A program made the translations under genes and the position numbers. The notes under the pieces were generated by a model that searched no databases, was not told the origin of the DNA, and was given only the letters and a program-made list of their open reading frames with translations. Shown here piece after piece: positions 3,642-4,206 of a stretch of 64,000 nucleotides of DNA (positions within the stretch are counted from its first letter, which is position 1; each line of letters opens with the position of its first letter). The stretch comes from Physcomitrium patens (taxonomy: Eukaryota > Streptophyta > Bryopsida > Funariales > Funariaceae), in contig NC_037258.1 of the NCBI RefSeq assembly GCF_000002425.4, positions 17,292,566-17,356,565 of the forward strand, read 5' to 3'.

Positions 3642-4193
3642 TGTCACGGCCATAATCATGTAAGCTAATAATTACATATAGAAATAGGTAGAAGTAAGTA
3701 AAAGTAGATAAAAGTAAGTTAATTGTATAATATTTAATATAGAAGCTTCCTAGAAACTTCCTAGACGCTGCTTTGACTTCATAGGTGTCTTTAATTGACT
3801 TTTTGGATTAGAAACGTGGTCAACAAGTTGGCCATGTGCCACACATGTTGTTAGCTTGAAGATCAAGCTAACTATGTGGCCCACACGTAGAAAAACTTGT
3901 CTTGTAAGTCAAGGCATGTGTCCTACAAAGTCAACACATATTGGAGGTCCTATAGAACGTCGCCACGTAGCCCCTAGTTAGATAGTATATATAGAGACAA
4001 GAGTGAAGGCTTCTTCACTCTTGTCAACTCCTTTCTTGCTTCTAGTCCAGGTTCAAGAGTCTTTAGTTTCTTGTCTTGTGGCAATAGCCATTCCAGTTTC
4101 CTTTTAATATACCTACTTGTTTATATTTTGACTTATTATATCGAGATAGCCTTTTGGTGTATATTTTTCCTCATCGAGTCTTTGTCCTTGACA
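3642..4193 (+). repeat. Element 1 5' LTR
   Basis: It begins TGTCACGG and ends CTTGACA, giving the canonical TG...CA ends, and is 552 bp long. It contains GAA/TTC-rich blocks in U3, a TATATATAG box at 3986-3994, an inverted repeat over the predicted start, and U5. It differs from the 3' LTR only in gacgctg versus gatgctg and cttgtcttg versus cttgccttg. Confidence 0.95.
3986..4027 (+). promoter_or_regulatory. Element 1 core promoter and predicted transcript start
   Basis: TATATATAG (3986-3994) is followed by GACAAGAGTGAAG (3996-4008), a GCTT spacer and CTTCACTCTTGTC (4013-4025), a perfect 13-bp inverted repeat. A CA step at 4016-4017 lies 31 bp after the start of the TATA box, the usual plant distance, so A4017 is the predicted first base of the RNA. 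The first 11 nt, ACTCTTGTCAA, are exactly complementary to the primer site at 4196-4206. The start site is inferred from spacing only. Confidence 0.7.
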
Positions 4194-4195
4194 GA

Positions 4196-4206
4196 TTGAC
4201 AAGAGT
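4196..4206 (+). other. Element 1 self-primer binding site
   Basis: TTGACAAGAGT lies two bases after the end of the 5' LTR, where a primer binding site is expected. It is the exact reverse complement of 4017-4027, the predicted 5' end of the transcript. No tRNA match (TGG...) is present at this position. Tf1 of fission yeast and related chromoviruses prime from the first 11 nt of their own RNA, and the geometry here is the same. The mechanism is inferred. Confidence 0.75.

Follow-up and report, generated by a model that had tools for sequence, protein, structure and literature searches.

A primer-repeating U3/R palindrome in probable self-primed chromoviruses of Physcomitrium patens

The retrotransposons at this locus raise the question of how an element that primes reverse transcription with the 5' end of its own RNA distinguishes that primer from the identical copy at the RNA 3' end. 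They lie in a window of 64,000 nucleotides, the whole stretch of Physcomitrium patens DNA analysed here (NC_037258.1, positions 17,292,566 to 17,356,565), and positions below count from its first letter. A preliminary description of this DNA had proposed that one family, A, primes itself in the manner of Tf1. We consider it probable that family A is a chromovirus of the Tf1/Tcn1 type, self-primed by nucleotides 1-11 of its predicted RNA, with a palindrome that hides the 3' copy of the primer.

The primer/site pair of family A

The features of element A1, and the corresponding pair of a second copy, A2, are as follows.

3642-4193, + strand: 5' LTR of A1, with TG...CA ends, identical to 9463-10014 at 550 of 552 positions
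3986-3993, + strand: TATA box TATATATA, 31 bp before A4017
4017-4027, + strand: proposed self-primer ACTCTTGTCAA, predicted RNA nt 1-11, exact complement of 4196-4206
4194-4195, + strand: 2-nt spacer between LTR and primer site, the same in family B and in the related loci L001, L002, L005, L006, L007 and L026
4196-4206, + strand: primer-binding site of A1, TTGACAAGAGT, assigned from complementarity and the genome-wide junction pattern
4388-8904, + strand: gag, protease, RT, RNase H, integrase, Tf2-1-like SH3 and chromodomain, from Pfam matches; interrupted by stops
9448-9462, + strand: purine-rich tract, AGAAAGGGGGGTAA region, immediately preceding the 3' LTR
9463-10014, + strand: 3' LTR of A1, carrying the same palindrome and 11-mer (9838-9848)
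13039-13049, + strand: primer 11-mer of A2, exact complement of 13227-13237
13227-13237, + strand: primer-binding site of A2, pairing with 13039-13049

A1 is flanked by GGAGG target-site duplications (3637-3641 and 10015-10019), and its Pfam matches give the gypsy order RT-RNase H-integrase with Chromo and SH3_Tf2-1. The 5' LTR ends in ...TTGACA at 4193, followed by GA (4194-4195) and then by TTGACAAGAGT. As the preliminary description had it, these letters, two bases past the LTR, exactly complement an 11-mer that starts at a CA step (4016-4017), 31 bp past the TATA box. The complementarity is exactly 11 nt long, the neighbouring bases on either side being unpaired, and its endpoint, together with the TATA spacing, points to an RNA start at A4017.

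Chance had seemed an unlikely source of such a match, and it is rejected here on the strength of LTR shuffles and of the between-family primer/site pairs described below. With no position demanded, 6 of 20,000 dinucleotide shuffles of the LTR contained the complement of the 11-nt A1 site; the same test gave 0 of 20,000 for family B. The claim that no tRNA 3'-end complement lies at the site also held, as judged by TGG, which a tRNA CCA end needs: in the four element types checked, the 15 nt that follow the LTR do not contain the triplet. Priming by a tRNA at 4196-4206 was rejected because TGG is missing.

The setting is one of nested insertions. A1 (3637-10019, with its GGAGG duplications) lies inside the LTR of another copy, and element B (18691-25228) is nested in an A-type LTR. 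In both A1 and A2, the frame changes between the gag stop and pol, by the same offset (5335-5347; 14365-14377), a frameshift-like arrangement. An old copy at 33755-33972 retains TTGACAAGAGT intact (33962-33972), its own 11-mer having decayed to ATTCTTATCAA. A degenerate CCCTAAA-like array at 49177-49600 resembles an old internal telomere-type repeat, and exons of a plant DUF630/DUF632 host gene (58263-62426), related to named entries from Sphagnum and Selaginella, adjoin the element array. Rfam returned no match across 3600-4700 up to E 1, and viral contigs yielded no relatives.

Joint change of primer and site

Family B provides an independent pair.

18692-19163, + strand: 5' LTR of B, its start set by eye; the 3' LTR ends at 25227
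19028-19038, + strand: proposed self-primer of B, AGTCTCGACAA, complementing 19166-19176
19166-19176, + strand: primer-binding site of B, TTGTCGAGACT, exact complement of 19028-19038

The B LTRs are identical at 454 of 470 positions (18694-19163 versus 24758-25227). Relative to A, 3 of 11 positions differ, in the primer and in the site alike. Thus A1, A2 and B each have, just past the LTR, a primer site that complements the predicted RNA 5' end. Outside the window, a contig scan yielded 31 loci with relatives (L001-L031). With these included, there are six distinct exact pair types: A; B, shared by L001; a B variant in copies L129 and L130; L002; L005/L006/L026; and L007. The primers of the relatives are AGTCTCGACAA (L001), ACTCTTGATCAA (L002, 12 nt), AAGGCGAACAA (L005, L006, L026) and AAGGTGAACAA (L007), and the four types compared differ at up to 7 of 11 positions, matched in the site. 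These pair types, together with the chromodomain and Tf2-1-like SH3 signature, support the proposal of Tf1-manner priming, and self-priming of families A, B and relatives is, at the level of sequence, a well-supported prediction.

When the strict layout was scanned for across the 31 loci, self-complementary primer and site of at least 11 nt were found in six (L001, L002, L005, L006, L007, L026) and of 9 nt in five (L021, L022, L024, L028, L030); many of the other contigs may be without an LTR junction. The unreversed control gave 9-11 nt in 4 of 31 (L021, L027 and L030 at 10-11, L005 at 9), and of the five 9-nt matches only L022 and L024, which form one family, were accepted as self-primed. 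L025 (a 14-nt match with a 3-nt gap, a 7-bp hairpin and no clear TATA box) was not counted as a self-primer, nor were other matches such as L014 and L021. The 31 loci come from bacterial or archaeal MAG records, and appear to be eukaryotic retrotransposon contigs binned there; L002-L007 sit in a Trichormus bin, and we presume that they may derive from a fern host such as Azolla. Named organisms among the best 120 relatives were frogs and a Tremellales fungus.

Copies were counted in the assembly that holds the window (GCF_000002425.4; 470,438,890 bases, 101 contigs). The A junction pattern occurs in at least 3149 places (reversed control, 0) and the B-type junction in at least 421 (reversed control, 3). 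Among the first 48 listed A copies, both 11-mers are common and matching in 30; the other 18 are mismatched, with the site changed in 9, the primer in 6 and both in 3. No matching primer accompanies the altered site in any of 27 A copies (19 with changes at position 4 and 8 others, of which 2 and 6, respectively, are also among the first 48). In B, 2 of 16 altered-site copies, L129 and L130, do have a matching primer. This subfamily was chosen by its altered site alone; its two members lie on different contigs, have the site TTGTCGAGGCT in common and both carry the primer AGCCTCGACAA, and their changes (T to C, A to G) run opposite to the direction of cytosine decay. Altered-site copies lacking a matching primer number 41 over A and B. 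Of 20 B copies chosen for the common site, 5 carry a changed primer and the remaining 15 match.

Covariation of 11-mer and site among copies, which the preliminary description had put forward as a check, thus has a divided outcome: it exists between families and in one B subfamily, and it is absent within family A, given the 18 mismatched copies and the lack of any match among the 27. The one-sided variants look like decay after insertion. The altered site TTGGCAAGAGT of several A copies can still pair with the common primer, one of the base pairs being G-U. Other one-sided variants are shared: L143, L157 and L161, B copies at different places, have the changed primer ACTCTCGACAA in common with an unchanged site, and A copies such as L083 and L085 have the changed site TTGTCAAGAGT in common with an unchanged primer. 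These may reflect a mismatch tolerated in a replicating line.

A palindrome across the predicted RNA start

Going beyond the preliminary description, we found a 13-bp palindrome in A (3996-4008 / 4013-4025), with a counterpart in B.

3996-4008, + strand: U3 arm, an inverted copy of primer nt 1-9 plus 4 bp
4013-4025, + strand: second arm, CTTC plus primer nt 1-9, with the predicted RNA start inside it
19007-19036, + strand: palindrome of B, arms 19007-19019 and 19024-19036, -22.7 kcal/mol

Positions 3996-4025 of A read GACAAGAGTGAAG-GCTT-CTTCACTCTTGTC, and the A1 hairpin folds at -21.5 kcal/mol. The B palindrome reads GTCGAGGCTGAAG-AGTT-CTTCAGTCTCGAC, at a distance from the TATA box within 1 bp of that in A. 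L004, L005, L006 and L026 have GTTCGCCTTG(A/G)T, a 4-nt loop and A(T/C)CAAGGCGAAC, and L007 has the same layout, its primer and U3 arm changed jointly, with one mismatch. The bearers are therefore A1, A2, B, L001, L004, L005, L006, L007 and L026. In each the palindrome amounts to the primer plus a third, inverted copy of it in U3, which changes along with primer and site; the U3 arm, the primer and its site, and the way the three change together from one family to the next, can be read directly from the DNA. Stems of 12-13 bp were reached by at most 2 of 5000 shuffles in all six elements with an unbroken stem; L007 (4761 of 5000 reach it), L002 and the old copy in L004 failed this unbroken-stem test. 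Since L002 and L022/L024 look self-primed and lack a palindrome, self-priming does not require one. A tree built quickly from 420 RT-region columns, with no Tf1, Galadriel or other reference in it, separated a group of A, B and L001 from one of L003-L007, and placed L002, which has no palindrome, with L020 next to the A/B/L001 group. Thus, the palindrome occurs in two separate clades and is absent in L002, and was either gained twice or lost.

Conservation over 42 A copies (30 first listed plus 12 with the common site) was 0.962 and 0.982 in the arms, 0.851 in the loop, 0.938 in U3 just upstream and 0.827 in the remaining LTR past the primer region. The B stem keeps G-U pairs, one of them in its common form, and the stem of L129/L130 is fully Watson-Crick. 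The old B copies L133 and L134 have compensated pairs in the stem, which were not counted because their changes follow the direction of cytosine decay.

The consequences for priming were modelled by RNA folding, with energy models that take in neither proteins nor tethering. Folded from the predicted start, the primer:site pairing has a mean probability of 0.94-0.96 in 9 of 9 elements. Adding 26 nt at the RNA 5' end lowers it to 0.000-0.29 in all 8 hairpin elements and leaves it at 0.977 in L002; in the models, priming therefore needs a start inside the palindrome. Compared with the primer:site duplex, the hairpin gains 3-7 kcal/mol of stability in 5 of 6 elements, and in L007 it is 0.3 weaker (-13.8 versus -14.1). 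In folds of two strands together, the pairing probability of the site is 0.42-0.95 with the 5' primer and 0.000, in 8 of 8 hairpin-bearing elements, with a 3' copy that includes the U3 arm. When the 3' piece starts at R, without the U3 arm, the site prefers it (0.93-0.95), and in L002, which has no hairpin, the site sits on the 3' copy at 0.69, i.e. unguarded. When the folds leave out the 5' primer, L005 (0.81) and L007 (0.52) are weakly guarded.

The same folds contain a central duplex of the 'pretzel' kind in 9 of 9 elements; a pretzel of three RNA duplexes has been described for fission-yeast elements, in the part of that paper covered here (PMC10085805). A duplex between the LTR end and the stretch just past the primer belongs to the best fold of L002, L005, L006 and L007, and is not clear in A1 and B. 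The leader past the primer site (4213-4323 in A1; 19177-19460 in B) folds with z of -3.5 and -3.1, a stability matched by none of 200 shuffles, into stem-loops that surround a repeated GGATTAC motif, doubled in B. By these models, the folded leader with its GGATTAC is a candidate packaging signal.

By analogy with Tf1, the 5' 11-mer would anneal to the site, RNase H would cut after nt 11, and the primer would be extended into U5. The U3 arm lies upstream of the predicted RNA start; it would be missing from the RNA 5' end, leaving the primer free. At the 3' end (U3-R) the RNA would keep this arm, paired with primer nt 1-9, and since U3 is transcribed only at the RNA 3' end, the hairpin would form only there. 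It could thereby shield the 3' R copy from the primer site and from the RNase H that cuts the primer; a cut at that copy would cost the RNA its poly(A) end and the place where strand transfer lands. In plus-strand strong-stop DNA, the same hairpin could block the 3' end from folding back onto its own R. On the basis of these models we propose that the hairpin may act as a guard against misdirected primer cleavage. Our broader suggestion is tentative, with the chances falling a little short of even: that the 3' R copy of the primer is a built-in hazard of self-primed elements, that a U3/R hairpin solves it through joint evolution of three sequences, and that this solution arose at least twice or was lost. 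The hairpin would offer a direct, testable answer to the question of how the two primer copies are told apart, and similar elements with and without it make up a natural experiment.

Other readings accept self-priming and differ over the palindrome. It might have no role in RNA at all, and be a promoter or initiator element, or be kept perfect by template-switch correction. Its place between the TATA box and the predicted start is core-promoter territory, perfect palindromes are known to arise by template switching, and L002 and L022/L024 do without it. Against a promoter role, its sequence is wholly different between families, with complementarity to the primer kept; a sequence-specific factor is disfavoured because the arms differ yet still complement the primer. 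The G-U pairs kept in B, even in the common form, and the greater variability of the loop than of the arms also argue against an absence of RNA function, which we judge unlikely, if a serious contender. A start-site switch, in which RNAs started upstream would lock the primer in a 5' hairpin and serve as message only, those started at A4017 being open to reverse transcription, seems to us improbable. The collapse of pairing in all eight hairpin elements on 5' extension, and its persistence in L002, would suit such a switch, and start-site choice is said to control Tf2 in fission yeast, in work by Persson et al. of 2016; however, a start before 3996 would be no more than some 10 bp away from the TATA box.

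One further reading does away with self-priming: a tRNA could prime at or near the site, for instance at TATCAGAGC (4217-4225), which resembles an initiator-Met site and, we take it, has 9 nt in common with the usual plant one. TATCAGAGC is kept in B. It lacks TGG, however, as do the first 15 nt after the LTR; it lies 23 nt past the LTR end, and it was set aside as a tRNA site because it is part of the leader stem. The six exact primer/site pairs would moreover be left unexplained, and we hold tRNA priming to be highly improbable; the initiator-Met resemblance is possibly chance or a relic.

Relation to known elements

The preliminary description treated self-priming as a departure from plant gypsy elements, which generally use tRNAs. 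The generality can stand; the surprise does not extend to this lineage, for which self-priming had already been predicted: Neumann et al. (2019), in the part of their account covered here, predict it for most plant Tcn1 chromoviruses and for TAR copia elements (PMC6317226). The moss elements resemble that clade, chromoviruses of mosses and clubmosses that are mostly predicted to be self-primed, and the main text of the account, in the same part, gives no primer sequences, covariation or U3/R hairpin (PMC6317226). What had been a clade-level prediction there now has evidence from between-family covariation in plant-type chromoviruses. For SM-Tcn1 of Selaginella, likewise a Tcn1-like chromovirus of a non-seed plant, the passages of Novikova et al. 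(2010) covered here report neither a tRNA site nor self-priming (PMC2864245), unlike the elements here, which have a self-priming pair. In Physcomitrium patens itself, RLG1 is described, in the portion covered, as a chromodomain gypsy element with 5092 complete copies listed, transcribed in protonema (PMC7466625). RLG1 and family A are both chromodomain gypsy elements with thousands of copies (5092 versus at least 3149 junctions), and their abundance and chromodomain suggest that they are probably the same.

The priming mechanism is already known. For Tf1, the part of a review covered here has the first 11 RNA nucleotides base-pair with the site and RNase H cleave the RNA behind nt 11 (PMC7175516); sources likewise covered in part treat self-priming in Tj1 (PMC4600332) and hairpin priming in general (PMC3601003). 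The portions of the literature on self-primed elements covered here contain no primer-repeating U3/R hairpin, nor do they ask how the 5' primer is told from its 3' copy; the original Tf1 papers lie outside that search, and an earlier description is possible. The U3/R hairpin is a new feature as far as this search reaches, and its modelled role is plausible.

Unlike the tRNA-primed plant chromoviruses (Tekay, Reina, CRM, Galadriel), which usually use initiator Met, the moss elements have a site that is not complementary to a tRNA 3' end, and their look-alike at 4217-4225 is without TGG. They are like the Tf1/sushi group in the 11-nt primer that complements a site just past the 5' LTR and, in A1, in the chromodomain and Tf2-1-like SH3. 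They are unlike that group as described, Tf1 being compared by description only, in carrying a third, inverted copy of the primer in U3 and with it a U3/R hairpin of 12-13 bp.
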